A DNA stretch of 62,549 nt from an uncultured Opitutia bacterium (GTDB lineage Bacteria > Verrucomicrobiota > Verrucomicrobiia > Opitutales > Opitutaceae): NCBI GenBank assembly GCA_903827245.1, contig CAIKHO010000088.1, positions 1 to 62,549 of the forward strand. The letters are read 5' to 3'. The translations under genes and the position numbers were made by a program. The notes under the pieces are model-generated. The model made no database searches. It was given only the letters and a program-made list of their open reading frames with translations, and was not told where the DNA came from. Below are positions 29,630 to 46,196 of the stretch, piece after piece (positions within the stretch are counted from its first letter, which is position 1; each line of letters starts with the position of its first letter).

Positions 29630-29636
29630 TTACCCC

Positions 29637-31727
29637 ATGAAAAAAATCCTCCTGCTGTCCGCCCTGCTCGCCGCCCTCGGGGCGCAGGCGGCTGATGAAG
29701 CGCTGCCGTTTGCCGGCAAGCCCGTGGTCGGCGCGAACGATGGCGTTCCCCCGCCGAATCCGGTGACCCCGACGCCCGAGCAGTTGCAGGCGATCCAGGC
29801 GAAGCAGGTTGAGTTCCGCGCGGCCATCAAGGCGCTCAAGGACGCCAAGGCCAACGACGACCTCGTCGTCGACGCCGAGGCCTACGGCTGGGTGATCGAG
29901 AATGTTGTGCGCGTTCCCGGCGGGTTCATCAACGACGCCGCCATCGGCAAGTGCATCTCGGTGCTGAACGACGGCCTGCGCCGCGCCGCCGAGATCAAGG
30001 CCGGCACGGCCGCCTGGCCGAAGCTCAAGGGCCGGGTCAACCGCGCCTACCGCTCCGTGGTCGACGGCACGGCCCAGCCCTATCACCTGAGCATCCCGGC
30101 CTCCTACGATCCGGCCAAGCCCACCCCGCTTTACGTCTACCTGCACGGTCGCAGCCATGACACGCCCGATCTCGGGCTCACGTGGGTGGGCGGCAACGAT
30201 GGCAACGCCGGCGCGGCCACGCAGGGCGAACTCGGTGCGCCAGCCGCACCCGGTGCCGCCGCCGGCAATGCGGGCGGCAACGGCCGCGCCAATGGCGGCG
30301 GCGGTCCCAATTACATCCGCGTCGAGGCCTTCGGCCGGGGCAACAACTCCTTCCGCTGGGCCGGCGAGACCGATGTCCTCGAGGTCATCGCATCCGTCAG
30401 CAAGCGCTACAACATCGACCCGAACCGCATTATTCTCGCAGGCTTCTCGATGGGCGGCGCCGGTGGATGGCAGATCGGCCTGCACAATGCGGATATGTTC
30501 TGCGGGCTCGAGGTCGACGCCGGCGTGATCGGCAACCGCCTGAACCTTGTGGACGGGCTCACCCCGTCCCAACGCGCCGCCAATGTCACCTACGGCATCA
30601 TGATCGACCATGCGCTGAACGTCTACAACACGCCGCTGGTCGGCTACGCCGGCGCGAATGACGCGCAGCTCGCCTCCTCCACCAGCATCCGCGAGCAGCT
30701 GGGCCGGGAAGGCTTCACCATCCCGCGCACCAGCCAGTACGTTTTCACGGGCAAGGACATCAACGCGCTCTTCCTCGCCAACCCGGGCCAGGGCCACTCG
30801 CACGCCACGGGCGAGACGGCCCGCCTCATCAACGAGTTCACTGCCGCCAACATCAAGCGCGGCCGCGAGGTGCCGGACCACATCCGTTTCATCACCTACA
30901 CGACCCGCTACAACCGCGACTTCTGGGTGACCGTCGACGGCCTGCAGCAGAGCTTCAGCCGGGCCAGCGTCGATGCCGAACGCAGCCCGGGCGGCACGAA
31001 CTACACCATCAAGACGAGTAATGTCTCGCGGCTGCTGCTGACGGATACGTCTGCCGCCGACCGGGTCACCATTGACGACGACATTCTCGCCGTTGGCCCC
31101 GCCGACACGATGCTGCTGGTCCGCGCCGGCGGCCACTGGACGTGGCAAACGGACGCCAAGGCGGCCGCCACGGGCCTGCGCAAGCAGCACAACCTCCAGG
31201 GCCCGATCAACGACGCGTTCTTCGACGCCTTCCTCTGCGTGGCCCCGACCGGCCGGGCGAACAACGCCATCGCCGACCAGCAGGGCAAGCAGGAGCTCGG
31301 CCGGTTTTCCCAGATGTTCGCCCGCGATTTCTGCGGCGAGACCCGCACGAAGGACGACACGGCCGTGACCGCCGACGACATTGCGAACAACAACCTCATC
31401 CTCTTCGGCGATCCCGGAAGCAACAAGGTCCTCGCCCGGATCGTGGACAAGCTGCCGGTCAAGTGGACCAAAGACAGCATCACGGTCGGCGGCCAGACCT
31501 ACAGCGCGGCCGATCACATGCCCGTCCTGATCTATCCCAATCCGCTCAACCCGAAGCACTACGTCGTGATCAACACGGGCCTCTCCGCCCAGGGCTTCCG
31601 CGGGCCGGCCGGCTATGGCGACTACGCCGTGCTCAAGGTCAGCAAGCAGGCCGACGGCACGCTGGCTGCTGAAACGGCTGCCGAGGGCGTGTTTGACGAA
31701 AGCTGGCAGTTGGCCGCCAAGCTCTGA
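29637..31727 (+). CDS. Secreted alpha/beta hydrolase (prolyl oligopeptidase/PHB depolymerase-like esterase)
   Basis: A 696-residue protein with signal peptide MKKILLLSALLAALGAQAA. Residues 130-420 hold the hydrolase: PYHLSIPASYDPAKPTPLYV then YLHGRSHD (oxyanion strand), a Gly/Ala/Asn-rich insertion (GNAGGNGRANGGGG, about residues 200-222) and nucleophile elbow AGFSMGGAGG with Ser near 275. A later GQGHSHATG offers the His. The C-terminal 250 residues are an extra beta-rich domain (DGTLAAETAAEGVFDESW). It starts 7 bp after the DUF1592 stop, so the two are almost certainly co-transcribed. It is probably an esterase on plant-derived or surface glycans; the substrate is unknown. Confidence 0.82.
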   Translation: MKKILLLSALLAALGAQAADEALPFAGKPVVGANDGVPPPNPVTPTPEQLQAIQAKQVEFRAAIKALKDAKANDDLVVDAEAYGWVIENVVRVPGGFINDAAIGKCISVLNDGLRRAAEIKAGTAAWPKLKGRVNRAYRSVVDGTAQPYHLSIPASYDPAKPTPLYVYLHGRSHDTPDLGLTWVGGNDGNAGAATQGELGAPAAPGAAAGNAGGNGRANGGGGPNYIRVEAFGRGNNSFRWAGETDVLEVIASVSKRYNIDPNRIILAGFSMGGAGGWQIGLHNADMFCGLEVDAGVIGNRLNLVDGLTPSQRAANVTYGIMIDHALNVYNTPLVGYAGANDAQLASSTSIREQLGREGFTIPRTSQYVFTGKDINALFLANPGQGHSHATGETARLINEFTAANIKRGREVPDHIRFITYTTRYNRDFWVTVDGLQQSFSRASVDAERSPGGTNYTIKTSNVSRLLLTDTSAADRVTIDDDILAVGPADTMLLVRAGGHWTWQTDAKAAATGLRKQHNLQGPINDAFFDAFLCVAPTGRANNAIADQQGKQELGRFSQMFARDFCGETRTKDDTAVTADDIANNNLILFGDPGSNKVLARIVDKLPVKWTKDSITVGGQTYSAADHMPVLIYPNPLNPKHYVVINTGLSAQGFRGPAGYGDYAVLKVSKQADGTLAAETAAEGVFDESWQLAAKL

Positions 31728-31838
31728 TTCGCGTCCTTGGACCAATTCAGCAGTCCCAACTTGCCCCTTCCCACCACTGGCATTAATCGTCACTTACGCC
31801 CCGTTTAGCCGTCAGTCAGTTCTAACACTTCCCCCATT

Positions 31839-33191
31839 ATGAGCAAAAATTGGCAGATTCACCGCCGGACCTTCCTTCGCGGCATGGGCACCGTCATCGC
31901 CCTCCCTGTTTTGGATGCCATGCTTCCCTCTGTGAAGGCGCTGGCCGATACCGTTGGCTCGACGCCCGCCGGCATGCCGAAGCGCGTGGCTTTTGTCTAC
32001 ACCCCCAACGGCATGAACATGGCGAAGTGGGCGCCGGAAGGTGTGGGCGCCGATTACACCCTTTCCTCGACGCTTGAGCCGCTGGCCGCGCACAAGGCGG
32101 ACTTCAACGTGCTCAGCGGCCTCGCACACCGGAAGGCCTTCGGCAACGGCGACGGCGGCGGCGACCACGCCCGCTCCTCGGCCACGTTCCTCACCGGCTG
32201 CCAGGCGAAGAAATCGGCGTCGGACATCCACATCGGCATTTCGGTGGACCAGGTGGCGGCGAATGCCATTGGGGACCAGACCCGCTTTCCCTCGCTGGAA
32301 CTGAGCTGCGACCGCGGCCAGGAGGCCGGCTCGTGCGACTCCGGCTACAGCTGCGCCTACCAGTTCAACATTTCGTGGCGCTCGGAGACGCAGCCGATGA
32401 ATCCCGAGATCGAGCCGAAGGCCGCGTTCGACCGCCTGTTTGGCGGCGGGTCCGCCGACGAATCCCGCGAGTCCCGCTTGCGCCGCGAGCAGCAGAACAA
32501 GAGCGTGCTCGACTTCGTCCTCGACCAGACCCGCGGCCTGCAGCGCGATCTCGGCACCGGCGACCGCAACAAGCTCGACGAGTACCTCACGGCCATCCGC
32601 GAGGTCGAGAAGCGCATCGAGCAGAACGGCAAGATGCCGCCACCCGTGCCCGAGGGCGCGGTGGGCAGCTTCGATGCCGAATACACCTTTGAGCGGCACA
32701 TGCGCCTCATGTTCGATGTGATGACACTGTCGTTCCAGACGGACAGCACGCGGGTGGCCAGCTTCCTCGTCTCGCACGATGGCGGCAACCGCCCGTATCC
32801 CTTTGCCGGCGTCCCGTCGGGCCACCATTCGATGTCCCACCACGGCAACAATCCGGAAAAGCTGGCCTCGCTCGCCAAGATCGACCGCTGGCACGCCACG
32901 CAGTTCGCGTACTTCCTCGACAAGCTGAAGTCCGTCAAGGAGGGCAACGGCACGCTGCTCGACAACTGCATGATCGTCTACGGCGCCGGCATCAGCGACC
33001 CGAACCAGCACTTGCACGACAACCTGCCGATCGTCCTGGCGGGTCGCGGGGGCGGCACTGTCACGCCGGGCCGTCACATCAAGGTGAGCGAGACGCCGAT
33101 GACGAACCTCTACACCTCGCTCCTGAACCGCATGGGCGTGCCGGTCGAGCGCTTCGGCGATAGCAAGGGCAAGCTCGAGGTCATCGCCTGA
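31839..33191 (+). CDS. DUF1552 domain-containing protein, copy 1
   Basis: A 450-residue protein with an N-terminal twin-arginine-like signal (HRRTFLRGMGTVIALPVLDA) and the complete DUF1552 domain: KRVAFVYTPNGMNMAKWAP, LTGCQAKKSASDIHIGISVD, ELSCDRGQEAGSCDSGYSCA and a C-terminal sulfatase-like tail with GAGISDPNQHLHDNLPIVLA and GRGGGTVTPGRHI. The family's function is unknown; the late His and Asn residues recall alkaline-phosphatase-superfamily metal sites. It is nearly identical over long stretches to the next gene (33543). It is followed by a strong terminator at 33217. It lies 111 bp after the esterase gene and probably belongs to the same operon. Confidence 0.9.
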   Translation: MSKNWQIHRRTFLRGMGTVIALPVLDAMLPSVKALADTVGSTPAGMPKRVAFVYTPNGMNMAKWAPEGVGADYTLSSTLEPLAAHKADFNVLSGLAHRKAFGNGDGGGDHARSSATFLTGCQAKKSASDIHIGISVDQVAANAIGDQTRFPSLELSCDRGQEAGSCDSGYSCAYQFNISWRSETQPMNPEIEPKAAFDRLFGGGSADESRESRLRREQQNKSVLDFVLDQTRGLQRDLGTGDRNKLDEYLTAIREVEKRIEQNGKMPPPVPEGAVGSFDAEYTFERHMRLMFDVMTLSFQTDSTRVASFLVSHDGGNRPYPFAGVPSGHHSMSHHGNNPEKLASLAKIDRWHATQFAYFLDKLKSVKEGNGTLLDNCMIVYGAGISDPNQHLHDNLPIVLAGRGGGTVTPGRHIKVSETPMTNLYTSLLNRMGVPVERFGDSKGKLEVIA

Positions 33192-33216
33192 GTTCGTTCA
33201 ACCCTCTTTAATCCAC

Positions 33217-33244
33217 AAGGCCCGCAGCAATGCGGGCCTTTTTG
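33217..33244 (+). terminator. Rho-independent terminator after DUF1552 copy 1
   Basis: The stem AAGGCCCGCA / TGCGGGCCTT with loop GCAA is followed directly by a T-run (TTTTTG). A near-identical copy follows the second DUF1552 gene at 34921. Confidence 0.92.
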
Positions 33245-33263
33245 TTGGAGGGAATTGATCCCG

Positions 33264-33377
33264 GTAGGGCGGCGACTCCGCTCGCCGCCGGGAATGTCCC
33301 CGGAGTCCAGACGAAGCCGCTCGTTGTCAGACTGGTTCTATCCTTATGCCCGGCGCGGAGCGGGGTCCGCGCCCTAC
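33264..33377. repeat. BIME of GTAG-foot REP, family G (GTAGGGCGGCGA)
   Basis: The left REP is GTAG then GGCGGCGA, CTCCGC and TCGCCGCC. The right REP on the minus strand is GTAG then GGCGCGGA, CCCCGC and TCCGCGCC. A second copy in the same context is at 34978. Confidence 0.9.
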
Positions 33378-33382
33378 CGGGT

Positions 33383-33472
33383 TCACTTATTCGGTGCTGC
33401 CTTCACCTACCCCGCCACTTTTCGCCGCGCCAGAGCCAGCGCAGCGAATCGGGCGGAATGGCGCCGTCATGG
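33383..33472 (-). pseudogene. Remnant of a duplicated esterase gene (C-terminal end only)
   Basis: On the minus strand this stretch aligns with the last codons of the intact esterase gene at 35117-36157. It encodes GAIPPDSLRWLWRGEK where the intact gene encodes GAILPDSLRWLWRDEV, and the DNA match continues through a small indel to a stop (TGA) at the position equivalent to the intact TAA. Nothing upstream of GAI matches. It is therefore the truncated tail of a second esterase copy lost after a tandem duplication. Confidence 0.85.
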
Positions 33473-33542
33473 CATGACTCATTTCCCGCATCACCTCGGC
33501 TCGCTCGAAGCGTCTAGCATCCCTAACCCCACCCGCCCCTCT

Positions 33543-34895
33543 ATGAGCAAAAATTGGCAGATTCCCCGTCGGACCTTCCTTCGCGGCATGGGCACCGTCA
33601 TCGCCCTCCCTGTTTTGGATGCCATGTTGCCTTCGGCGCGGGCGCTCGCCGCCACGCTGGGTGCCGGTCCCGCGGATTTTCCCAAGCGCATGGCCTTTGT
33701 TTATCTGCCGAACGGCATGAACATGGCGAAATGGGCGCCCGAGGGGGTCGGCGCTGACTACAAGTTGTCGCCGACGCTCGAACCGCTGGCCGCGCACAAG
33801 TCCGATTTCAATGTCATCAGCGGCATCGTGCACCAGAAGGCCAAGGCCAACGGCGACGGTGGCGGCGGGCATGCCCGGGCCTCGGCGACCTACCTCACGG
33901 GCTGCCAGGCGAAGAAATCGGCGTCGGACATCCACATCGGCATTTCGGTGGACCAGGTGGCGGCGAACGCCATCGGGGACCAGACGCGCTTTCCCTCGCT
34001 GGAACTGAGCTGCGACCGCGGCCAGGAGGCCGGCTCGTGCGACTCCGGCTACAGCTGCGCCTACCAGTTCAACATTTCGTGGCGCTCGGAGACGCAGCCG
34101 ATGAATCCCGAGATCGAGCCGAAGGCGGCGTTCGACCGGCTGTTCAGCAGTGGTTCCGCGGGCGAATCCCGCGAGTCCCGCCTGCGCCGCGAGCAGCAGA
34201 ACAAGAGTGTGCTCGACTTCGTGCTCGACCAGACCCGCGGCCTGCAGCGCGATCTCGGCACCAACGACCGGCACAAGCTCGACGAATACCTCACCGCCAT
34301 CCGTGAGGTCGAGAAACGCATCGAGCAGAACGGCAAGATGCCGCCGTCCGTGCCCGAGGGCGCGATGGGCGACATGGAGGGCGAGTACACGTTCGAGCGC
34401 CATGTCCGGCTCATGTTCGACATGATGACGCTGTCCTTCCAGACGGACAGCACACGGGTGGCCAGCTTCCTCGTCTCGCACGATGGCGGCAACCGCCCGT
34501 ATCCCTTTGCCGGCGTCCCGTCGGGCCACCATTCGATGTCCCACCACGGCAACAATCCGGAGAAACTCGCCTCGCTCGCGAAGATCGACCGGTGGCACGT
34601 CACGCAGTTCGCCTATTTCCTCGAGAAGCTGAAGTCGGTGAAGGAAGGCAGCGGCACGCTGCTCGACAACTGCATGATCACCTATGGCTCCGGCCTCAGC
34701 GATCCCAACCAGCACTTGAACGACAACCTGCCCACCATCGTGGCGGGTCGCGGCGGCGGCACCATCACGCCGGGGCGCCACCTCAAGCTCACGCCGACGC
34801 CGATGACGAATCTCTATACGTCGCTGCTCAACCGCGCCGGCGTTCACGCCGAGCGTTTCGGCGACAGCACGGGCCGGCTCGAGGCCATCGCCTGA
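33543..34895 (+). CDS. DUF1552 domain-containing protein, copy 2
   Basis: A 450-residue tandem paralogue of the gene at 31839, with the same Tat-like start (PRRTFLRGMGTVIALPVLDA) and the same DUF1552 blocks. Similarity is mosaic: the first 80 bp and a stretch of about 200 bp around codons 125-190 (CQAKKSASDIHIGISVDQVA onward) are almost base-identical, whereas the segment between them (residues 30-120) and the C-terminal 60 residues have diverged. This suggests a tandem duplication with later gene conversion. I used the ATG at 33543 because it matches copy 1; the longer frame to 33255 runs through the BIME and the esterase remnant. Confidence 0.9.
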   Translation: MSKNWQIPRRTFLRGMGTVIALPVLDAMLPSARALAATLGAGPADFPKRMAFVYLPNGMNMAKWAPEGVGADYKLSPTLEPLAAHKSDFNVISGIVHQKAKANGDGGGGHARASATYLTGCQAKKSASDIHIGISVDQVAANAIGDQTRFPSLELSCDRGQEAGSCDSGYSCAYQFNISWRSETQPMNPEIEPKAAFDRLFSSGSAGESRESRLRREQQNKSVLDFVLDQTRGLQRDLGTNDRHKLDEYLTAIREVEKRIEQNGKMPPSVPEGAMGDMEGEYTFERHVRLMFDMMTLSFQTDSTRVASFLVSHDGGNRPYPFAGVPSGHHSMSHHGNNPEKLASLAKIDRWHVTQFAYFLEKLKSVKEGSGTLLDNCMITYGSGLSDPNQHLNDNLPTIVAGRGGGTITPGRHLKLTPTPMTNLYTSLLNRAGVHAERFGDSTGRLEAIA

Positions 34896-36436: not shown

Positions 36437-37846
36437 ATGGAAAACCTTCAAGGAAAGGGCGGCGTTTTTTGTGTCTCCACGTATGGCGCGAAGCCGGGGG
36501 CGGCCGCGCCCTGCACGGCCGCCATCCAGCAGGCGATCGACGCTGCGGCCGCGGCGGGCGGGGGCGTGGTCAACTTTGCGCCCGGCACCTACCGGACCGG
36601 CGCCGTGTTCGTGAAGTCGCACGTCGAGTTGCGTGTGGACCGTGGCGTGGAACTCGTCGGCGTGCAGGACGAGGCGGCCTACCCGGAAATCTGGTCCCGC
36701 GTGGCCGGGATCGAGATGCGCTGGCCGAGCGCGTTGATCAACATTTACGAGCAGCACGACGTGAAGGTCACCGGCGAGGGCGTGATCAACGGGCAGGGCG
36801 ATCACTGGTGGAACAAGTACTGGGGCCCGGACGAGCGCGGCGGCATGCTGAAGGAGTACGACGCGAAGGGCCTGCGCTGGGCCGTGGATTACGACTGCCA
36901 GCGTCCGCGGGTCATCCTCGTCTACAAGTCCGCGGACATCCTCCTGGAAAAACTCACCCTGAAGCGCTCGCCGTTCTGGACGGTGCATGTGTGTTTTTCG
37001 ACGAGGGTCACGGTCGACGGGATCATCATTCGCGAAAACCTCGGGCCGAGCTCGGACGGGATCGACATCGACTCCTCGTCCGAGGTGATGGTCCGGAACT
37101 GTGATGTCGACTGCAACGACGACGCGATCTGCCTCAAGTCCGGGCGCGACGCGGACGGCCTGCGGGTGAACCGACCGACGGAAAACGTGGTGATCCGCGA
37201 CTGCATCGTGCACGCGGGCCACGGCCTGTTCACGATCGGCAGCGAGACGGCGGGTGGTGTGCGCAACATCGAGGTGTTCAACCTGAAGGCGCGCGGCACC
37301 TGGATCGGCTTCAGCTTCAAGTCCGCCCGCACGCGTGGCGGGGTGGTGGAGAACATCTCGATCCACGACATCGACATGGTCGACGTGCCCCGGCCGTTCC
37401 GCTTCACGCTGAACTGGATGCCGACCTACAGTTACCCGCAGTTGCCGCCCGGCTGGAAAGGGAAACTACCGGTGCACTGGCAGGCGCTCACGGCGCCGGT
37501 CATCCCGCCGGAGCGTGGAATTCCGGAGTTCCGCAACATCACCTTCGCAAACATTTCCGTGAAGATGAATCCGCGCCCGCCGGATGCCGCGGCGCCGTCG
37601 TCGTCGGTCATGATGCACACGCCCGACCCGCTGGCCTCGAAGGCCTTCGACATCGAGGCCGACCCGCAGAAGCCGATGCACGGCCTCCACTGGAAAAACA
37701 TCCGCATCGAGGCCGCCAGTGCCGGCCAGATCGCCCACGCCCGGGACTGGACGATGGAGAACGTCACCGTGCAAACGCCCGACGGCGCGCCAGTGGCCCA
37801 GGAAAACTGCATGAACGTGCCGCAGCCAAAGCTGACGCTAGGCTAG
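36437..37846 (+). CDS. Glycoside hydrolase family 28 (polygalacturonase-type) protein
   Basis: A 469-residue right-handed beta-helix protein. It begins FCVSTYGAKPGAAAPCTAAI and AAAAGGGVVNFAPGTYRTGA, the usual first coils. Active-site motifs are SSDGIDIDSSSEVMVRNCDV (NxD-type Asp), CNDDAICLKSGRDADG (paired Asp) and AGHGLFTIGSETAGGVRNIE (the G-H-G His). The RIK substrate motif is replaced by TWIGFSFKSAR. No signal peptide is visible from this start, so it may act in the cytoplasm on imported oligogalacturonides, or the true start may have been missed. It cleaves galacturonan-type linkages, fitting the rhamnosidase genes nearby. Confidence 0.88.
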   Translation: MENLQGKGGVFCVSTYGAKPGAAAPCTAAIQQAIDAAAAAGGGVVNFAPGTYRTGAVFVKSHVELRVDRGVELVGVQDEAAYPEIWSRVAGIEMRWPSALINIYEQHDVKVTGEGVINGQGDHWWNKYWGPDERGGMLKEYDAKGLRWAVDYDCQRPRVILVYKSADILLEKLTLKRSPFWTVHVCFSTRVTVDGIIIRENLGPSSDGIDIDSSSEVMVRNCDVDCNDDAICLKSGRDADGLRVNRPTENVVIRDCIVHAGHGLFTIGSETAGGVRNIEVFNLKARGTWIGFSFKSARTRGGVVENISIHDIDMVDVPRPFRFTLNWMPTYSYPQLPPGWKGKLPVHWQALTAPVIPPERGIPEFRNITFANISVKMNPRPPDAAAPSSSVMMHTPDPLASKAFDIEADPQKPMHGLHWKNIRIEAASAGQIAHARDWTMENVTVQTPDGAPVAQENCMNVPQPKLTLG

Positions 37847-37936: not shown

Positions 37937-38839
37937 CTATTTCCCGTCGCCGACGACCTTTGGGATGCCAACGTCGACCTTGCCCTTGGGGACGTCGGGC
38001 CTCTCGAACTTCAGGCCGTCGAGGGCGTGGCCGAAGTAGTCGGCGGCGGCCTTGCCCATGGCGGGCAGCGAGCCGGTGAAGCTGTTGCCCGCGGAGCGGA
38101 TGCTGAAGCGCGTCGACCAGAGCAGCTGCGGCTTGCCGCCCTTCTTCATCGTGTGGAAGTCGTAGGCCATCAGGATGACGAAATAGCGCTCCTCGCTGAG
38201 GAGCAGCCGCAGCGCGATCTCGTCGGTGGTCATGCCGCTGGAGGAGGCCGTCGCCTGGTTTTGCTCCTTGTTCAGGTCGCGGCGGAAGCCAAGGAGTTGG
38301 GCATTGGTCGCGACGGAATTCTGCTGGGCGCCCGACTCGAGGTCGGAGATCGCGAGCTGCTGGTTCAATGCGCTCTGGTCCGGCGGGAGGTTGGCGAGGA
38401 TGTTGTCCGAGGGCGCGGCGGCGGCGGCCACCGCGGCGTTGTACTTGCTGATCTCGGCGTTCTTGTTCTCGAGGTTGAACTGCTGGTTGGGGTCCTCGTA
38501 CACCGTCGTCGTGCCCCAATGGACCACGAGCAGCAGATCGGCGTTTTTCTGGTCCTTGGTGGGAAAATAATTCTGCTTCACCAGGTTCTGCGCCAGGATC
38601 TTCGCGATGTCGTTGAACTGCGCGTGCTCGAGGTTGGGATCGCGGGTCGTGCCGCCGAAAAACTTGCCCTGGAAGAACAGGTAGGACTCCGGCTTCGGCG
38701 CGCCCGGGCCGAACTTTTGCCGGGCATAGTCCTCGGAGGAGGTGGAGGAGACAGCCACGGGATCGGTGGCCCGCAGCGGGCGAGGGACGGCGGCCAGCAG
38801 GGCGAGGAAAACGAGGCAGACCGGGGTGGTTTTGGCCAT
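37937..38839 (-). CDS. Secreted protein of unknown family, tandem paralogue 3 of 3
   Basis: A 300-residue protein with signal peptide MAKTTPVCLVFLALLAAVPR. It shares with the genes at 39058 and 39991 an N-terminal block (PKPESYLFFQGKFFGGTTRD, PNLEHAQFNDIAKIL, DLLLVVHWGTTTVYEDPN), a variable middle that is predicted helical (ENKNAEISKYNAAVAAAAAP), and a C-terminal block (RYFVILMAYDFHTMKKGGKP, LLWSTRFSIRSAGNSF, DYFGHALDGLKFERPDV, ending VGDGK). I recognise no domain. The conserved strands look like a periplasmic alpha/beta fold. I start at the Met at 38839, which opens the signal peptide. It is the most diverged of the three in its middle. Confidence 0.8.
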   Translation of the reverse strand: MAKTTPVCLVFLALLAAVPRPLRATDPVAVSSTSSEDYARQKFGPGAPKPESYLFFQGKFFGGTTRDPNLEHAQFNDIAKILAQNLVKQNYFPTKDQKNADLLLVVHWGTTTVYEDPNQQFNLENKNAEISKYNAAVAAAAAPSDNILANLPPDQSALNQQLAISDLESGAQQNSVATNAQLLGFRRDLNKEQNQATASSSGMTTDEIALRLLLSEERYFVILMAYDFHTMKKGGKPQLLWSTRFSIRSAGNSFTGSLPAMGKAAADYFGHALDGLKFERPDVPKGKVDVGIPKVVGDGK

Positions 38840-39010
38840 GTCAGCAGGGAAGGCGAATTTTAGGTGCCCGGCCATGCCATTTTTACGGGTGAGGCGTGGC
38901 ACAGCAGCCACCCGGAATCCGCCGCCCGGAGGTCGGCGGCCACCTATGTCTAATCGCGCGAATTGGCCAGTAGGCTAAAATGCAAAACCTGGCTTGGCGC
39001 TCCCCCTCGA

Positions 39011-39038
39011 TCCATCGCGGCGTAAAGCCGCTCCTACA
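39011..39038. repeat. Single GTAG-foot REP, family A, minus orientation
   Basis: On the minus strand it reads GTAGGAGCGGCTTTACGCCG plus CGATGG: GTAG foot, GA, then GCGGC-TTTAC-GCCGC. No partner REP is present. It lies 20 bp beyond the stop of the gene at 39058. Confidence 0.85.
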
Positions 39039-39057
39039 GTCGATCTTTGCGCGCGGC

Positions 39058-39939
39058 CTATTTGCCGTTGCCAACCACCGTGGGCACGCCGATGTCGACC
39101 TTGCCCTCGCGCGCGCCGGGGTTTTCGAGCTTCAGCCCGTCGAGGGCGTGGCCGAAATAGTTGGCAGCGACCTTGCTCATGGCTGGCAGGGCGGACGTGA
39201 AGGTAATGCCCGCCGCCCGGATACTGAAGCGGGTCGACCACAGCAGCTTCGGGGTGGAGCCTTTTTTCATGCTGTGAAAATCGTAGGCCATGAGGATGAC
39301 GAAGTAGCGCTCCTCGGCGAGGGCCGTGAGCAGGTCGCCGACCTCGCTCGAAACGCCGCTGGAGGACGCGGAAACCTTCTGCTGGTCCTTGGCCAGCTCC
39401 TGGCGGAATCCCAGCAGCTCGGCGTTAATGCCGATGTGATGTTGTACCTCCACCTGCTCGGTTTCGGCCATGGCCAAGGCCTGGTTCAGCGGGCCGGGAT
39501 CCGGATGCTTGCCGGCGGAAATCGCGGCATTGTACTTCGCCTGGAGTTCATTCAGCCGCTCCTGGTCGTCCTGCCGGTTGGGATTCTCGTAGACCGTGGT
39601 GGTGCCCCAATGCACCACGACCAGTAGGTTGGCGTCCTTCGGGTCCTTGGAGGGAAAGTAATTCTGGCGGACCATATTTTCGCCGAGGATCTGCACGATG
39701 CTGTTGAACTGGGCGTGCTCGAGATCCGGGTCGCGGGTTGTGCCGCCGTAAAACTTGCCCTGGAAGAAGAGGTAGCTCTCGGGCTTGGGAGCGCCGGGGA
39801 TGAACTTTTGCTCGGTGTATTCCGCCGAGGCCGTGGAGGACACCGCGACGGGATTCACGACGTCCCCCAGCAAACGGCCGGGGCCGCCGCTGAGCGCTGC
39901 AGTCAACGCGAGGCAGAGAGAGGCCTTCTTGGAAGTCAT
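39058..39939 (-). CDS. Secreted protein of unknown family, tandem paralogue 2 of 3
   Basis: A 293-residue protein with a signal peptide at the N-terminus (MTSKKASLCLALTAALSGGP). The shared blocks are PKPESYLFFQGKFYGGTTRD, NLLVVVHWGTTTVYENPN and RYFVILMAYDFHSMKKGSTP, followed by DYFGH-type as NYFGHALDGLKLENPGAREG. The middle region (RLNELQAKYNAAISAGKHPD; LAMAETEQVEVQHHIGINAE) is helical and differs from its paralogues. The three genes lie head to tail with gaps of 218 and 51 bp, so they may form one transcription unit starting at 40854. Function is unknown. Confidence 0.8.
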   Translation of the reverse strand: MTSKKASLCLALTAALSGGPGRLLGDVVNPVAVSSTASAEYTEQKFIPGAPKPESYLFFQGKFYGGTTRDPDLEHAQFNSIVQILGENMVRQNYFPSKDPKDANLLVVVHWGTTTVYENPNRQDDQERLNELQAKYNAAISAGKHPDPGPLNQALAMAETEQVEVQHHIGINAELLGFRQELAKDQQKVSASSSGVSSEVGDLLTALAEERYFVILMAYDFHSMKKGSTPKLLWSTRFSIRAAGITFTSALPAMSKVAANYFGHALDGLKLENPGAREGKVDIGVPTVVGNGK

Positions 39940-39990
39940 ATCGGCGGGGAGGGGTTGAGTACGGGGGAAAAAGGGATGGCGCCCGGCCGG

Positions 39991-40854
39991 TCACTTGCCG
40001 TCGCCCACGACCTGCGGCACACCGACATCCACCTTGCCCCTGGGGACGTCGGGTTTCTCGATCCTCAGTCCATCAATGGGATGCCCGAAATAATCCGCCG
40101 CGACCTTGCTCATGACCGGCAGGGAGGCGGTGAAGCTGTTGCCCGGCGAGCGGATGCTGAAACGCGTTGACCAGAGCAGCTTCGGCGGGGTGCCCTTTTT
40201 CATCGTGTGATAATCGTACGCCATGAGGATGATGAAGTAGCGCTCCTCGCTGAGGAGCAGCTTCAGGGCGATCTCGCCGTCGGACACGCCGCTGGAGGAG
40301 GAGGACAGTTTGTTGCTTTCCTGGGCGAGCTGCTGGCGGAAGCCCAGCAGCCGCGCGTTGAAGGCGATGGAATTTTCCTCCGTGCCCTGCTCGAGATCGG
40401 CGATGGCGAGCTCCTGGTTGAGCGCGGAGTGATCCATGGACGGCGGTGCGGCCTGCTCGGCGGCGATGGCGTCATTCTTGCGCTGGAGATCGTCCTGCTG
40501 GTTGGGATTTTCGTAAACGGTGGTGGTGCCCCAATGGACGACGATGAGGAGGTCGGCGTTTTTCGGATCCTTGGTCGGGAAATAATTCTGCCGGACCATA
40601 TTCCCGGCCAGGATCTTCACGATGTCGTTGAACTGCGCATGCTCGAGGTTCGGATCGCGGGTCGTACCACCGAAAAACTTGCCCTGGAAGAACAGGTAGG
40701 ACTCCGGCTTCGGCGCACCCGGGCCGAACTTCTGCTGGGCGTATTCCTCGGAGGCGGTCGAGGACACTGCGACGGGATCGACAGCCCGCAGCGGGCAGGC
40801 GAGGGCGGCCAGACCGGCAAACAGGGCGAGGAAGGTGAGGGCGGGTTTTGACAT
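39991..40854 (-). CDS. Secreted protein of unknown family, tandem paralogue 1 of 3
   Basis: A 287-residue protein with signal peptide MSKPALTFLALFAGLAALAC. The Cys at residue 20 is followed by PLRAVDPV, so it could be either a lipidation site or simply near the cleavage site. It carries the same two conserved blocks as its neighbours (PESYLFFQGKFFGGTTRDPN; LLIVVHWGTTTVYENPNQQD; YFIILMAYDYHTMKKGTPPK; VPRGKVDVGVPQVVGDGK). The middle part is short and helical (DDLQRKNDAIAAEQAAPPSM). It is the first gene of the array on the minus strand and is preceded by a 106 bp gap that holds a single REP. Function is unknown. Confidence 0.8.
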   Translation of the reverse strand: MSKPALTFLALFAGLAALACPLRAVDPVAVSSTASEEYAQQKFGPGAPKPESYLFFQGKFFGGTTRDPNLEHAQFNDIVKILAGNMVRQNYFPTKDPKNADLLIVVHWGTTTVYENPNQQDDLQRKNDAIAAEQAAPPSMDHSALNQELAIADLEQGTEENSIAFNARLLGFRQQLAQESNKLSSSSSGVSDGEIALKLLLSEERYFIILMAYDYHTMKKGTPPKLLWSTRFSIRSPGNSFTASLPVMSKVAADYFGHPIDGLRIEKPDVPRGKVDVGVPQVVGDGK

Positions 40855-40960: not shown

Positions 40961-42178
40961 TCAGGGCAGAGCGGCGGCGGCGGCCGTCTGAAAGGCCTGG
41001 TGCATGGGGGAATTGTCCGGGTTGCCCATGCGGTCGCGCTGGAGCATGAGGATGTAAATGACCCCCTTGCCCGGGTCGGCCCAGCTGTTGGTGCCGAAGG
41101 CGCCGCCGTGGCCGAAGGAGTTAGGGGTGAGCATGACATTTGCCTCCATGGCCTTCGGGTCCTCGACGACGCAGAAGCCGATGCCCCAAGGCATGCCGGC
41201 GCGGGCCTTGAGATCGCCGGTCTGCTTACGGGTCATCTCCGCCACGGTGGCGGGCTGGAGGATGCGGTGGCCGTTGAATTCACCATGATTGAGCATCATC
41301 TGGTAAACCTTCACGACATCCTCGGCGGTGGAATAGAGCCCGGCGCCGCCCAGGGGCGGGCGACCGCGGTCCGTGGCGACGGTATTGTACATGTAGCTGA
41401 TGGTCGTCTCCTCCAGTTTCTTGGTCTGCGCGTTGAGAATGTAGCTTTTGGCCAGACGTTTCGCCTGCTCCTCGGTGGGCCAGAAGGTGGTGTTCTTCAT
41501 GCCGAGCGGGTCGAACAACCGCTTCTGCAGGAAGGCATCGTAGGGCAGGCCGCTGACGACCTCGACGACGCGGCCCATGATATCGATGCCGGTGGTTGAA
41601 TATTGCCAGCGGGTGCCGGGCTGGAAGCGGAGGGGCAGTTGCGCGGTCAGCTTGCCGGTCTCGGCGAGGGTCAGGTGCGGGTCCCGTTTGCTCAATTCGC
41701 CGAGGCCGCTCGTGTGAGTGAGCACGTCGCGCAGCGTGATCGGCCGCGCGGCCGGCTGGGGGGCGGCGGCCGGGGTCGCGGGCGCCGCCGGGGCGCCGCG
41801 GCCCTGGGACTCGACGACCATCAGGTGGGCGAATTCCGGGAGATATTTCTCCACCGGGTCGTCGAACTTCAGCTTCCCGTCGTCCACCAGCATCGCGACG
41901 GCGACGGCGGTGATGGGCTTGCTCATCGAGGCGATCCAGAAAAGGTCGTCCGTCTGCATCTTGCGGCCCGTGGCGACATTGGTCGTGCCGACGGCTGCGA
42001 GGTGCAGCACGCGGTCCTTCGTGGCGACGAGCGTCACGATGCCGGAGATCTCGCCCTTGTCCACGAACGCCTGCATCTGCGGCGCGATGGCGGCGAACTT
42101 GTCCTGCGCTGTCGCGAGGGTCGGCAGCAGGAAGGCGAGGGTGAGGAGGGGGAGCCAGGTCAGGCGGCGGGCATTCAT
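40961..42178 (-). CDS. Serine hydrolase, beta-lactamase/class C esterase family
   Basis: A 405-residue secreted protein with signal peptide MNARRLTWLPLLTLAFLLPT. The beta-lactamase-fold motifs are present: S-x-x-K as ASMSKPITAVAVAML, Y-S-x as RWQYSTTGIDIMG and H-x-G as FGHGGAFGTNSWAD. An Ala/Pro-rich insertion (GRGAPAAPATPAAAPQPAAR) interrupts the helical domain near residue 145. These proteins are usually esterases or D-aminopeptidases rather than true beta-lactamases. I start at 42178 to open the signal peptide. It begins 25 bp after the lactonase stop, so the two are probably co-transcribed. Confidence 0.88.
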   Translation of the reverse strand: MNARRLTWLPLLTLAFLLPTLATAQDKFAAIAPQMQAFVDKGEISGIVTLVATKDRVLHLAAVGTTNVATGRKMQTDDLFWIASMSKPITAVAVAMLVDDGKLKFDDPVEKYLPEFAHLMVVESQGRGAPAAPATPAAAPQPAARPITLRDVLTHTSGLGELSKRDPHLTLAETGKLTAQLPLRFQPGTRWQYSTTGIDIMGRVVEVVSGLPYDAFLQKRLFDPLGMKNTTFWPTEEQAKRLAKSYILNAQTKKLEETTISYMYNTVATDRGRPPLGGAGLYSTAEDVVKVYQMMLNHGEFNGHRILQPATVAEMTRKQTGDLKARAGMPWGIGFCVVEDPKAMEANVMLTPNSFGHGGAFGTNSWADPGKGVIYILMLQRDRMGNPDNSPMHQAFQTAAAAALP

Positions 42179-42203
42179 TGGTGGGGGTGGTCGGGATTTG
42201 ATA

Positions 42204-43331
42204 TCAGCGGACGGGGAGAAAACGTTCACAGAAAGGATAGGGCACGGCGACGGGATCGCCGACCTGGGTCAGGCGGCCAGTGGCTTCGTCGACGCGGAAT
42301 ACGACGGCGTTGTTGCTGTCATGGTTGGTGCAGATGATCCAGCGGGACGTGGGATCGAAGGCGAAGTTGCGCGGCGTCTTGCCCTGCGTCGGGATATGTT
42401 GGACGAGCGTGAGCCGGCCGGATTCCTGGTCGATCGCGAAGACGGCGAGGCTGTCGTGGCCGCGGTTCGAGCCGTAGAGGAAGCGCCCATTGGGGTGAAT
42501 TTCCATCTCGGCACAGGCACTGGTGCCCTTGAAGTCCGCGGGCAGCGTGGAGATGGTCTGGAACTCGGTCAACGTGCCCTTGGCCGCATCCCAGTTGAAG
42601 GCGATCACGGTGCAGCCGATCTCGTTGATCAGGTAGACCCATTTGCCGTTGGGATGGAATTTGACGTGTCGCGCACCGGAGCCGGGGGCGACGGTCACAA
42701 AGGCCGGGCTGTGTGGCGTGAGGGAGCCGTCCTTCTCGTCGAAGCGGTAGACAAACACCTTGTCCACGCCGAGGTCGGCCACGAGGGCGAAGCGATTCGA
42801 CGGGTCGACGACGATGGAGTGGGCGTAGGCATGCGTCTGCCGCTGCGGATTCGGGCCGCTGCCCGTGTGCTGCCTGAAGGCGGTCCAGTCGCCGAGGCGG
42901 CCGTCGGGCTGCAGGGCGAAGACGGCGATGTTGCCGCCCGCGTAGTTGGCGGCCAGCGCGTAACGGCCGGTGTGGTCGAGGCTGAGGTAGCTCGTGTCGC
43001 CGCCACCTGCGAGCTCGCGGTTCAGGAAGGTGAGGCCGCCCGTGTGCGGGTTGATCCCGTAAGCCGCCACCCCGCCCGGGTCACCGGAATTGCAGGTGTA
43101 GAGATGGCGGCCGTCGGGGTGGATCACGAAATACGCGGGCGCCCGGGCCTCGAGGAGGAACTGGGGTTTGGTCAGCACGCCGGTGTCGGTGTCGAAATGC
43201 GCGAGCGAAAACCCGATGCCGGGCCCCGCCCGGTGCGAGCCGAAGTAAACGAACATGTCCGCCCCGGCGGCCGGCTGCGCGGCGAGGGCGAGAGCGGCTA
43301 AGGCCGCAAAAAAACGATGCGGGGAGGGCAT
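42204..43331 (-). CDS. Lactonase family protein (6-phosphogluconolactonase/YbhE-like seven-bladed propeller), secreted
   Basis: A 375-residue protein with signal peptide MPSPHRFFAALAALALAAQP. The propeller repeats are visible as recurrent HPDGRHLYTCNSGD, DHTGRYALAANYAGGNIAVF, DPSNRFALVADLGVDKVFVY, HPNGKWVYLINEIGCTVIAF, HPNGRFLYGSNRGHDSLAVF and TPRNFAFDPTSRWIICTNHD segments. Cytoplasmic Pgl enzymes of this family open 6-phosphogluconolactone. A signal peptide argues for a periplasmic substrate, such as an aldonolactone made by a sugar dehydrogenase. It is followed at 25 bp by the serine hydrolase and preceded by a cupin gene in the same direction. Confidence 0.9.
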   Translation of the reverse strand: MPSPHRFFAALAALALAAQPAAGADMFVYFGSHRAGPGIGFSLAHFDTDTGVLTKPQFLLEARAPAYFVIHPDGRHLYTCNSGDPGGVAAYGINPHTGGLTFLNRELAGGGDTSYLSLDHTGRYALAANYAGGNIAVFALQPDGRLGDWTAFRQHTGSGPNPQRQTHAYAHSIVVDPSNRFALVADLGVDKVFVYRFDEKDGSLTPHSPAFVTVAPGSGARHVKFHPNGKWVYLINEIGCTVIAFNWDAAKGTLTEFQTISTLPADFKGTSACAEMEIHPNGRFLYGSNRGHDSLAVFAIDQESGRLTLVQHIPTQGKTPRNFAFDPTSRWIICTNHDSNNAVVFRVDEATGRLTQVGDPVAVPYPFCERFLPVR

Positions 43332-43415: not shown

Positions 43416-43763
43416 TCAGCCGGCGGGGATTTCCGGCACGCGGATCACGGCGTACTTGATCGGGGTTGACCCGGAATTACGCAGGCCGTGCATGACATGC
43501 TCGGGACAGAACAGGGCGCTCATGGCCTGCATCGGGTGCTTTTCATCGCCGATGGTGGCCTCGCCCTGGCCCTCGAACAGGAAGATGATTTCCTCCCCGG
43601 CGTGCTGGTGCGGCGGGTGGGCGGCCTCGCCGGGATTGATCACCGAGACATGCAGCCGCAACTGGTGCGCGCCGCACGCTTCGCCGACAAACGGCAGCAT
43701 GTAACCCCGGTCGTGCCGCTGGGCGGCGCCTTCATTCCACGGGATGATGCAGGGGTGGGGCAT
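43416..43763 (-). CDS. Cupin domain-containing protein
   Basis: A 115-residue single-domain cupin. Motif 1 is HPPHQHAGEEIIFLFEGQGE, with the two His and the Glu that normally bind a metal, and motif 2 is LFCPEHVMHGLRNSGSTP, with the later His. There is no signal peptide. Single cupins of this kind serve as sugar isomerases, dioxygenases or ligand-binding regulators, and nothing here decides between them. It precedes the lactonase and serine hydrolase genes on the same strand (84 bp gap) and may belong to their operon. Confidence 0.88.
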   Translation of the reverse strand: MPHPCIIPWNEGAAQRHDRGYMLPFVGEACGAHQLRLHVSVINPGEAAHPPHQHAGEEIIFLFEGQGEATIGDEKHPMQAMSALFCPEHVMHGLRNSGSTPIKYAVIRVPEIPAG

Positions 43764-43827
43764 GGGAACACCAGCATACTAAGCCCCGGGAAAAGTCGAG
43801 TTCTGGCCTTGGCGGGAGACGGAATGA

Positions 43828-44025
43828 TTTCACGCAGAGCCGCAGGGGGCGCAGACAGAGCAATACATCCCTTTGCCGATGATTGGAGGTAGGAGCGGCT
43901 TCACGCCGCGAGCTTCGCTTTGTGGGCCTAAATATCGCGGCATAAAGCCGCTCCTGCATTTCCAAACTGATCCATCGCCCCATCCCTCGTTCTTCCGCTC
44001 CGCGCCTTTGTGTCTCCGCGCGAAA
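43828..44025. repeat. Family K palindrome with a family A BIME nested inside
   Basis: The outer arms are TTTCACGCAGAGCCGCAGGG and CCTTTGTGTCTCCGCGCGAA plus A. In the middle, directly after GCCGATGATTGGAG, sits the element at 43889-43957. The related K element at 53517-53689 has the same GCCGATGATTG centre without that inner BIME. Confidence 0.75.
43889..43957. repeat. BIME of GTAG-foot REP, family A
   Basis: The left REP is GTAG-GA-GCGGC-TTCAC-GCCGC. The right REP on the minus strand is GCAG-GA-GCGGC-TTTAT-GCCGC. It is nested in the larger K palindrome. Confidence 0.9.
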
Positions 44026-44122
44026 CAGGTTTGGAAGGAAGAAATCGACTTTGGGCGCGGAAACAGGAAAACCATTGCCCCGCCCGTGCGTTATTCCACC
44101 ACGGGCTATCCTCCCAACCCCT

Positions 44123-44545
44123 ATGAAATCCCCCCGTCTCGGTTTCGCGGCGCTCTTCGCCGCCTGTTTCATGTCCGTCGCCGCCTTCGCGGCCGATCCC
44201 TCCGGCAGCTGGAAGTGGACGGTCGAGTTCAACGGCCAGTCGTTCGACTCGGCGGCCAAGATCGAGGTGAAGGACGGCAAGCTCACCGGCACACTGACCA
44301 GCCCGATGGGCGAGATTCCGATCACCGACGGGACGTTCAAGGACGGCGTGGTGGTCTTCACCCTCACGCGGGAGCGCGACGGCAACAAATTTGTCATCAA
44401 GTACCAGGGCAAGGTGGACGGCGATACCATCACCGGCAGCATCGATTTCCCCGGCTTCAACGGCGGAGAGCCCATGAAGATGGATTGGAAGGCGTCGCGC
44501 ATGAAAGAGGAGAAGAAGGCGGACGAGCCTGCGAAATCCAAATAA
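44123..44545 (+). CDS. Small secreted beta-rich protein, paralogue 1 of 3 (WKW family)
   Basis: A 140-residue protein with signal peptide MKSPRLGFAALFAACFMSVA cleaved near AFAA|DPS. The mature part starts DPSGSWKWTVEFNGQSFDSA, continues KIEVKDGKLTGTLTS and has FVIKYQGKVDGDTITGSIDF. These patterns, in the same order, recur in the genes at 45425 and 46197. Alternating strands and a length of about 115 residues suggest a small beta-barrel or sandwich. The C-terminus is Lys/Glu-rich (MKEEKKADEPAKSK). The SGNH hydrolase gene follows 42 bp later. Function is unknown. Confidence 0.82.
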   Translation: MKSPRLGFAALFAACFMSVAAFAADPSGSWKWTVEFNGQSFDSAAKIEVKDGKLTGTLTSPMGEIPITDGTFKDGVVVFTLTRERDGNKFVIKYQGKVDGDTITGSIDFPGFNGGEPMKMDWKASRMKEEKKADEPAKSK

Positions 44546-44587
44546 GCCGGGCCGCCCTCGGCCCTTGGCCTGAAACCAATTGATCCC

Positions 44588-45328
44588 GTGAAAATTACCA
44601 CCCGTTCGTTCCTTCGCCCCGTTTTTCTGGGCATCGCGATTTTTGCCACTGCAGTCTGCTCCGTCGCGGCCAACACCGCCATCGAGCCCGTGCCGCGCGG
44701 CGGCTCTCCGGCCCAGATGCACAAGGATTTCGTCGCGCTCGCCCAAAAGGGTGGCATCGACGTGCTGTTCCTCGGCGATTCCATCACCGATTTCTGGCGC
44801 AACCGCGGCAAGGCCGTCTGGGACAAATACTACGGCTCGATGAACGCCGCCAATTTCGGCATCAGCGCCGACCGCACCCAGCACGTGCTGTGGCGGCTGA
44901 ATAACGGCGAGGTCGACGGCATCAAACCCAAGGTCGTCGTTCTTTTGATCGGCACCAACAACACTGGCGTCGAGACCAACGGGTCTCCGCGCAATACGAC
45001 CGAGGAGGCCATCGAAGGCGTCAGCAAGGTCGTCCAGACGCTTCGGACCAAACTGCCGGAAACAAAAATTCTTCTGTTGGGGGTCTTTCCGCGGGCGGAC
45101 CCTAAGGGCCCGCCGCCCGGCTCAACTCAAATCAAGGACGTCAACGCAGGGTTGGCGAAGCTCGACGACGGAAAATTCATCCGGTTTCTCGACATCGGCC
45201 CGAAATTCCTGCAGCCCGACGGCACGTTCTCCAAGGAGATCATGCCCGATCTGCTGCATCCGAGCGAAAAGGGATACGAGATCTGGGCCGCGGCGATCAA
45301 GCAGCCGCTCGCCGACCTCCTTAAATAG
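44588..45328 (+). CDS. SGNH/GDSL hydrolase, PAF-acetylhydrolase-like, secreted
   Basis: A 246-residue esterase with signal peptide KITTRSFLRPVFLGIAIFAT and cleavage near SVAA|NTA. Block I is VLFLGDSITDFWRN (nucleophile Ser in GDSI), block III is VVVLLIGTNNTGVET and block V is PDLLHPSEKGYEIWA (Asp and His). The Gly of block II lies in MNAANFGISADRTQ. The closest named group is the platelet-activating-factor acetylhydrolase IB beta/gamma type, which in Bacteroidetes and Verrucomicrobia is mostly carbohydrate deacetylase. It starts 42 bp after the small secreted gene and probably shares its transcript. Confidence 0.9.
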   Translation: MKITTRSFLRPVFLGIAIFATAVCSVAANTAIEPVPRGGSPAQMHKDFVALAQKGGIDVLFLGDSITDFWRNRGKAVWDKYYGSMNAANFGISADRTQHVLWRLNNGEVDGIKPKVVVLLIGTNNTGVETNGSPRNTTEEAIEGVSKVVQTLRTKLPETKILLLGVFPRADPKGPPPGSTQIKDVNAGLAKLDDGKFIRFLDIGPKFLQPDGTFSKEIMPDLLHPSEKGYEIWAAAIKQPLADLLK

Positions 45329-45385
45329 GCCGCCCGGCCCCACAAAATGCTGGAACAACCAGGGGCCGCGGTGTACCGTGCGCGT

Positions 45386-45405
45386 GCGTACTATTCTTTG
45401 TACGC
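45386..45405. promoter_or_regulatory. Short palindrome upstream of small secreted protein 2
   Basis: GCGTAC and GTACGC flank TATTCTTT, 20 bp before the ATG at 45425. It could be a regulator site, part of the promoter or the foot of a leader hairpin. I cannot decide from the sequence. Confidence 0.4.
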
Positions 45406-45424
45406 TTAACCCCCAAATAAATAT

Positions 45425-45838
45425 ATGAAAGCACTCCGTATCATCGCCGCGGCCTTGGTTGCCGCTTGTGTCATCACCGCCTCGGCTGTCGCCGCGGACA
45501 TCACCGGCAGTTGGAAATGGTCCCAGCAGGGCCGCAACGGCGCCCAGGACTACACGGCCAAATTCGCCCTCAAGGACGGCAAGCTCACCGGCAGCGTGAT
45601 GGTGCCCGGCTTTGGCGGCGGCGAAGCGACGTCCGTCGACATCACCGATGCGTCCTTTGCCGACGGCAACGTCGCGTTCTCGCTTGTGCGCGAATTCAAC
45701 GGCAACAAGATTGTCACGAAATTCACCGGCAAGTTTGACGGCGACAGCATCAAGGGCTCGTTCGAGCGCCCGGGTCGTGACGGTGGGGCTCCGACGAAGA
45801 GCGACTGGAACGCCTCCCGCGCCGACAAGAAGATGTAA
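45425..45838 (+). CDS. Small secreted beta-rich protein, paralogue 2 of 3 (WKW family)
   Basis: A 137-residue protein with signal peptide MKALRIIAAALVAACVITAS and mature start ADITGSWKWSQQGRNGAQDY. It shares FALKDGKLTGSVMVPGFGGG, DASFADGNVAFSLVREFNGN and KFTGKFDGDSIKGSFERPG with its paralogues. In this copy and the third, the segment between the second and third strands is Gly-rich. It ends with a short basic tail. It has its own leader (45329-45424) and its own terminator, so it is probably transcribed singly. Function is unknown. Confidence 0.82.
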   Translation: MKALRIIAAALVAACVITASAVAADITGSWKWSQQGRNGAQDYTAKFALKDGKLTGSVMVPGFGGGEATSVDITDASFADGNVAFSLVREFNGNKIVTKFTGKFDGDSIKGSFERPGRDGGAPTKSDWNASRADKKM

Positions 45839-46196
45839 GCCGCGCCCGCGATTGCGCGGGTCGGTTACTGGCCTTCCAAGCGCCGGGTAAACCGGCCGAA
45901 ATTTCAAGTCCCGCCCCTTTTACGGGGCGGGATTTTTTTGGATATATCGATGTGCAGCAACATTTTGACGGCGGACATTCCGGCGTGGGATGGGTGCGAG
46001 AGCGGCAGGATTGGCTGCGCTGCAATGGCAGGCGGCCCTACGGTTGGATCTCCATGCTCCAGGTTGGGCCGCTGCTTCTCGATCCGTTTTATGGCGCAGC
46101 CGGTTCTTAAAGCGGCTTTCCGCCCGGCATCGCATTATTTTGTGAAACCAATGCCTTTGTGAGGCGTCTTGCCTGTTTCCTTACCCCCTCCAACAC
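45839..46196. other. Intergenic region between small secreted proteins 2 and 3
   Basis: This 358 bp gap contains the terminator at 45909-45939. After it I see no repeat, RNA or coding signal up to the leader of the gene at 46197. Confidence 0.6.
45909..45939 (+). terminator. Rho-independent terminator after small secreted protein 2
   Basis: The stem CCCGCCCC / GGGGCGGG with loop TTTTAC is followed by A and seven T. It lies about 70 bp after the stop at 45838. Confidence 0.92.

Follow-up and report, generated by a model that had tools for sequence, protein, structure and literature searches.

A tandemly duplicated Opitutales protein family with a predicted PelC/TraT/DUF4136-type core and a copy-specific helical insertion

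What kind of protein does a bacterium encode three times in succession, with strongly conserved ends and a middle that differs in each copy? The question is raised by three adjacent minus-strand open reading frames (ORFs), here called w3, w2 and w1 (Table 1), on a contig of an uncultured Opitutia bacterium (GenBank assembly GCA_903827245.1, contig CAIKHO010000088.1; the whole stretch analysed, 62,549 nucleotides, is referred to as the window). A preliminary description, made from the sequence alone, had read them as tandem paralogues of an unrecognised secreted family whose variable middle diversifies a binding surface. The answer developed below is that the proteins share a predicted alpha/beta core of the PelC/TraT/DUF4136 type, an assignment we regard as well supported, that their family is a distant sister of DUF4136, and that the middle is a folded helical insertion into this core.

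That the copies are tandem paralogues is confirmed: w1 is 61% and 73% identical to the other two, w2 and w3 are 65% identical, and a search of the own genome with w3 recovers the other two copies at E-values of 8.7e-116 and 3.6e-135, far beyond chance. For w1, the ATG at 38839 aligns with the starts of the other copies, while the mechanical ORF opens at an upstream GTG (38911). The four end motifs pointed out earlier, YLFFQGKF[FY]GGTTRDP, VVHWGTTTVYE[ND]PN, ILMAYD[FY]H[TS]MKKG and LLWSTRFSIR, each occur in all three copies, and the layout of a fixed frame around a helical middle that varies by copy likewise holds up, with a middle (computed over w3 residues 115-196) that is less conserved than either frame, 82, 85 or 95 residues long depending on the copy, and helical in the structural models described below. 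The word "secreted" rests on the look of the N-terminus, which by eye is hydrophobic and has an A-x-A-like site. Promoter and terminator scans of the locus gave signals no better than those of shuffled sequence.

Core fold and kinship with DUF4136

We assembled relatives by scanning a genome collection with one peptide pattern, which confirmed 136 loci, of which 80 were kept. Two were dropped from this set (L102, with stops in the joined match, and L086, with an over-long frame), and the remaining 78 loci together with the three window proteins form an 81-row alignment; a second alignment of 80 sequences leaves out L095 as well. AlphaFold2 was run for w3 and w1 as monomers on inputs of 81 and 80 sequences and returned confident models, judged by the predicted local distance difference test (pLDDT) and predicted template modelling (pTM) scores in Table 1, with a middle that is helical and folded. 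In w3 the core comprises a strand (residues 28-34), a helix (36-43), a strand (51-61), a helix (75-89) and a strand (102-110) before the insertion, and two strands (205-214, with the lowest entropy among the listed elements, and 226-235) and a helix (241-255) after it.

Structure searches with these models converge on one superfold. TraT (PF05818; PDB 9FSM, 9FS5 and 9E2V) is the best Foldseek match of both; the top five rows for w3 are TraT three times, 4L8N and the DUF4136 protein 4F54, with E-values from 8e-6 to 6e-4, and PelC comes after them, whereas for w1 TraT alone passes E 0.001. The DUF4136 structure is matched at E 5.7e-4 with w3 and 0.013 with w1, and PelC at best at 0.007 with w3 and at 0.04-0.11 with w1. 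VIA-align of w3 gives Z-scores of 10.2 for 4L8N, 10.0 to 9.7 for crystal PelC, 8.7 for 4F54 (root-mean-square deviation (rmsd) 4.5 Å, 146 residues aligned) and 8.9 to 8.4 for TraT, where the rmsd is 10 Å in two of the three rows. Across PDB entries 5T0Z, 5T10, 5T11 and 9H80, PelC aligns to w3 at Z 8.7-10.0 over 117-126 residues (chain 5T0Z_D: Z 10.0, rmsd 4.2 Å, 126 aligned); PelC differs in having no long insertion, its chains being 131-158 residues long, and in being a lipoprotein that rings PelB, as a passage of PMC12141448 describes it. CsgG (Z 7.4), FlgT (7.3), and LptE, the TolB N-domain and HpaA (about 5-7 each) match more weakly; these proteins have the same broad alpha/beta superfold with different insertions and partners. 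A Z-score near 8 is not by itself decisive for fold assignment, and we accept the placement because many rows agree on one superfold that is also reached by sequence profiles.

In direct sequence searches with the three copies, no entry of Pfam, NCBIfam, PHROGs or PADLOC passed its threshold, and a PDB sequence search returned one chance-level row (E 0.98). NCBIfam run on the 81 members gave single-member matches only (best E 0.0075), and among the matches listed by a literature search no title concerns this family. The family is thus unrecognised in the sense that no library matches it directly, but it is not without relatives. DUF4136 (PF13590; solved member BT2437, PDB 4F54), whose function a 2016 paper calls unknown (PMC5192318), is the only Pfam family to match more than one member: five of the 81 match it, at E 2.5e-4 or weaker. 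L050, L054 and L068, which are among the five, and L136, a sub-threshold DUF4136 locus that is itself a member of the array's family, share one register, protein residues 47-166 against profile positions 12-104, at 20.7, 18.8 and 16.2 bits for the first three and 23.0 bits for L136.

This kinship can also be followed through intermediates. Searching 57 genomes (the window's own and its relatives) with the DUF4136 profile identified canonical lipoproteins over the cut-off in 5 genomes, from which a canonical set of 5 loci was drawn out of 12 such matches, and in addition a set of lipoprotein frames below it. This intermediate set consists of 10 sub-threshold loci, read stop to stop (L123, L129, L130 and L137 were left out, and L136 stands outside it as a member of the array's family); the frames are about 240-300 residues long, and a cysteine is invariant in the ten aligned. 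One of the separate sub-cut-off lipoprotein frames that bridge canonical DUF4136 to this family lies in the own genome (L127, C29:2039-2587). In hhalign comparisons the 81-member profile matches the intermediates at a probability of 95.3 (E 2e-8) over 208 columns covering both core halves, and canonical DUF4136 at 78.9 over 58 columns in the first core half, while intermediates and canonical DUF4136 match each other at 86.1. The likeness to DUF4136 therefore extends over core fold, N-terminal register and profile kinship; the differences are scores below the gathering threshold, an insertion of median length 85 residues, and a lipobox-like N-terminus in only 1 of 81 members (by a regular expression over residues 11-40), compared with the invariant cysteine of the 10 intermediates.

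Several observations weigh against this placement. The template modelling (TM) scores of the top ten w3 matches, normalised by query length, are 0.27-0.37 and the Foldseek rmsds are 6-17 Å, values which we attribute to the match being confined to the core; 4L8N is absent among the 50 Foldseek rows listed for w1; the three copies do not match DUF4136 even at E 1, and the 16-23 bits of the four relatives above fall short of its gathering cut-off of 32.8; the hhalign controls, 30 column shuffles and 2 reversals with probabilities of at most 0.5, are not unrelated real families; and hhalign of the family against TraT, with a TraT profile of two sequences only, is not significant (probability 0.2). 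On balance we consider the placement in this superfamily and fold very probable, and the family well supported as a distant sister of DUF4136 that stands outside it by Pfam's rule.

Distribution and copy number

At E 0.001, the profile of the three window proteins finds a match in 26 of the 57 genomes, and the own genome holds five more matching frames beyond the array (contigs C6, C30, C66, C77 and C82). The 81-member profile, with at most eight candidates per genome scored, matches 18 of 288 genomes of the phylum at E 1e-6. Sixteen of them are among the 25 same-family genomes listed, the other two belong to the same order, and the remainder gave no match. All 80 kept loci bear verrucomicrobial names and 64 have "Opitut-" in the title; Pelagicoccus, Lacunisphaera and Synoicihabitans, also among the locus names, we take to be part of the same group. 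The family belongs to the window's own order, its relatives being titled Opitutaceae and Opitutales.

Of the 26 genomes matched by the three-protein profile, 9 have at least two family frames within about 1.1 kb of each other, and one genome (G318) has six family matches in 22 kb, a larger array than the window's (L140-L141, G318:C1:2288000-2320000). Tandem arrays are therefore habitual in the family. Profile searching, which the preliminary description had proposed as a way to define the family and its range, thus delimits an Opitutales family that is often tandem, and one that is not isolated, given its sister relationship to DUF4136. At the present locus three congeneric species have 3 (the window), 2 (G002) and 1 (G001) copies, and the two copies of G002 correspond in their middles and array order to w3 and w1.

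Many relatives match the three-protein profile in the C-terminal half only and have a different middle (C66, C77 and C82 of the own genome; L025-L034), in which motifs like MLALVSG or LVGG are seen by eye; they apparently form a second, more divergent branch.

The helical insertion and the history of the copies

Across the 81 members the insertion is 55-119 residues long (median 85). In the w3 model its block-mean pLDDT is 93-98, falling to 85 at residues 181-190; relative to w3, the first helix of w1 (119-141) is longer, as is the hairpin tip, which gains a short helix (147-150). The most hydrophobic 19-residue window among the 81 inserts reaches 1.07, and none attains 1.6 on the Kyte-Doolittle scale. 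A motif of the LG[FYML] type occurs in 65 of the 81 inserts, and Gly171 of the insertion is recorded as invariant across the 81 aligned rows. The mean entropy of the middle is 2.99 bits, compared with 2.11 and 1.77 for the two frames. Folded, hydrophilic and with a conserved motif, the middle is therefore a structured and constrained element, and the possibility entertained earlier, that it is simply an unstructured linker, does not agree with the confidently folded w3 and w1 models.

The position of the insertion recalls TraT. In two Verrucomicrobiota TraT homologues a hydrophobic stretch, located by eye, separates the strand behind the first helix from its successor, and in one of them the 19-residue hydropathy reaches 1.62; the insertion of our family appears, from this by-eye sequence comparison, to occupy the same place between core strands. 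The location agrees with a passage of PMC12658005 that describes two membrane helices extending from the TraT core, whereas the insertion here is hydrophilic, and 80 of 81 members lack a lipobox. Membership of TraT, raised by the fold match, was dropped, the sequence comparison with TraT being not significant and the insertion not hydrophobic. Of 194 genomes sampled from the phylum, two encode true TraT homologues, and neither belongs to the window's family (L138 in G162 and L139 in G100, matching PF05818 at E 1.5e-35 and 1.8e-32).

We estimated the ratio of nonsynonymous to synonymous substitution rates (dN/dS) by Nei-Gojobori counting. Six sequences, which form 15 pairs, supplied the 10 pairs counted; G001b, the seventh in the alignment, entered none of them. 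The N-terminal frame has a ratio of 0.12-0.30, the C-terminal frame 0.17-0.32, the middle 0.30-0.83 and the signal segment 0.35-0.83. An elevation in the middle is thus present relative to the frames, but the ratio stays below 1 in all ten pairs and the middle evolves no faster than the signal peptide. Positive selection at a few sites may escape pairwise counting. Together with middles that group by type across two species, as set out next, these ratios do not bear out the earlier suggestion of a diversifying binding surface.

The middle of w3 is 68% identical to that of its G002 counterpart (G002a), compared with 57% to w1 and 49% to w2; for w1 the values are 58% to G002b, 57% to w3 and 42% to w2, a tie with w3 by identity alone, with the longer insert common to w1 and G002b, and the comparison is partly circular in that the G002 copies were called counterparts by their middles and array order. 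The N-terminal frames behave differently, with identities of 89% (w3/w1), 83% (w3/w2), 76% (w1/w2) and 83% (G002a/G002b) within genomes, the same-type pairs standing at 80% and 78%. Approximately unbiased (AU) tests on four fixed topologies of seven sequences reject the by-type tree for the N-terminal frame (p = 0.038 for DNA, 0.008 for protein), although the Kishino-Hasegawa and Shimodaira-Hasegawa tests fail to reject it on the protein data (0.063 and 0.064), and reject the within-genome trees for the middle (0.008 and 0.022); trees of the C-terminal region give no decision, and unconstrained trees are weakly supported. Site patterns differ between N-terminal frame and middle (Fisher p = 8e-4), most clearly at first and second codon positions (p = 3e-5), whereas third positions divide 8 within-genome to 6 by type in the N-terminal frame and 5 to 7 in the middle (p = 0.70). 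Gene conversion behind this conflict is not claimed, as third codon positions do not show it. The likeness of the N-terminal frames within each genome may reflect co-adaptation at replacement sites, or an old conversion whose silent sites have since diverged. The arms are probably old and maintained, and the pattern in the middle agrees with a long-standing difference between copies that has been kept under relaxed purifying selection.

Possible roles in the envelope and the genomic neighbourhood

Taken as a whole, the reading we lean towards, at little better than even, is that the copies are non-lipidated periplasmic PelC/TraT-like adaptor or ring proteins, each with its own helical arm; the envelope mechanism itself, drawn by analogy, we put forward more tentatively, as the less probable part. 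An ordinary signal peptide would export the protein to the periplasm without a lipid anchor, and a conserved face of the core would dock on a shared partner or on other copies. Cores would then assemble into an arc or ring, or act as an adaptor on an outer-membrane complex, with the helical insertion projecting as an arm that makes a contact particular to each copy. Because the copies have a common frame and differing arms, they would either serve side by side as variants of a single adaptor or come together as subunits in a mixed assembly. The analogy draws on passages describing TraT as a decamer (PMC11733297, PMC12658005), PelC as a dodecamer around the PelB barrel (PMC12141448) and PqiC as an octamer (PMC10897342).

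Other evidence speaks against such a role. The ring formers of this fold are lipoproteins, a lipobox-like N-terminus being found in a single member here; PqiC without its lipidated cysteine was purified as a monomer, in a passage of PMC10897342, and the absent lipid anchor argues against a classical ring. LptE and TolB are non-ring proteins of the same fold, and little of the neighbourhood is common beyond the genus, in a limited test that compared 15 window neighbours.

A more specific version, in which the copies, as soluble PelC/TraT relatives, co-assemble into mixed periplasmic rings of one core with different helical arms, is a long shot. If true, gene copy number would set the number of arm kinds on one ring, and co-adaptation within the ring would have left its mark in N-terminal frames that resemble each other within a genome and arms that keep their identity between species; such co-adaptation would fit better than recent gene conversion, because the conflict lies in replacement and not in silent sites.

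The main rival, which we judge unlikely, is a soluble ligand-binding periplasmic monomer in the manner of the TolB N-domain or LptE, binding a glycan or lipid that differs by copy, with the insertion as a lid. It shares the fold with those proteins and would account for the missing lipid anchor, a GH28 polysaccharide enzyme and an esterase are encoded nearby, and a passage of PMC12658005 notes that some binders of anionic oligosaccharides have the TraT core fold; against it, LptE and TolB match more weakly than PelC and DUF4136, and few of the compared window neighbours adjoin family members outside the genus. Redundant gene dosage, with equivalent copies whose middle drifts since it matters little, is quite improbable: the intermediate dN/dS of the middle and the varying number of copies at the locus (1, 2 or 3) agree with it, but in two species the two types of middle have stayed distinct, with N-terminal frames more alike within each genome (AU tests and replacement sites). 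Least probable among the rivals are diversifying paralogues whose frame displays a positively selected middle (receptor, adhesin or anti-phage display), since the faster, higher-entropy middle and the recurrence of tandem copies are set against ratios below 1 in every pair, an equally fast signal segment, same-type middles kept across two species (for w1/G002b by insert length and tree support), an invariant Gly171 and a best PADLOC match of only E 0.017.

The serine hydrolase gene upstream and the GH28 gene downstream (Table 1) flank the family in both congeners, the hydrolase being cut by the contig end in G001. When the 15 window neighbours were compared with loci outside the genus, the only matches were DUF1552/DUF1592-type genes beside L050 and L055, a serine hydrolase at L091 (36%) and a weak match at L107 (24%); eight stretches of other genomes, covered as lists of frames, may hold conserved neighbours among themselves. 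The compared neighbours point to no pathway, and none of the 14 neighbouring window proteins scanned against Pfam resembles a Pel export gene. At 26651-34895, 3 kb from the array, are one DUF1592 (PSCyt1/PSD) gene and two DUF1552 (HXXSHH) genes; the occurrence of such genes beside family members at L050 (1-2039) and L055 (3275-6331) may be chance. For two frames without a Pfam match, 43732-44826 and 45122-45907, the matches in a congener (L039, 1-2269) partly fall on the same frames; the two may belong to a single repetitive or frameshifted region, or be non-genes as read.

Table 1. Features of the array and its flanks, by position in the window.
Feature	Position	Strand	Remarks
Copy w3	39991..40854	-	287 amino acids; first in array by transcription direction; AlphaFold2 mean pLDDT 92.4, pTM 0.85
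w3 core, N-terminal half (residues 25-114)	40513..40782	-	AlphaFold2 strands/helix; DUF4136 register in relatives
w3 insertion (residues 115-201)	40252..40512	-	AlphaFold2 helices 119-135, 143-170, 173-181, 192-201
w3 core, C-terminal half (residues 202-287)	39994..40251	-	AlphaFold2; last 17 residues less certain
Copy w2	39058..39939	-	293 amino acids; no third copy at this locus in the two congeners
w2 insertion (residues 118-207)	39319..39588	-	Placed by alignment to w3
Copy w1	37937..38839	-	300 amino acids; AlphaFold2 mean pLDDT 92.7, pTM 0.84
w1 insertion (residues 115-214)	38198..38497	-	AlphaFold2 helices 119-141, 147-150, 156-183, 186-196, 205-214
Serine hydrolase / beta-lactamase-family gene	40961..42229	-	Upstream; Pfam PF00144, E 2.5e-72
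GH28 gene	36437..37846	+	Convergent; Pfam PF00295, E 7.3e-24

What is new here is a family unnamed in the searched libraries, expanded and apparently non-lipidated, with a predicted soluble helical insertion in place of the membrane helices of TraT. An unannotated and repeatedly duplicated family of the Opitutales is thereby tied, on the predicted models and profiles, to the fold of outer-membrane rings (TraT, PelC and CsgG-like). On this comparison, the position of the TraT membrane helices can instead be taken by a soluble helical arm, an element of a second kind, and what this insertion point does, like the role of DUF4136-like proteins in general, becomes testable in a free-living bacterium.

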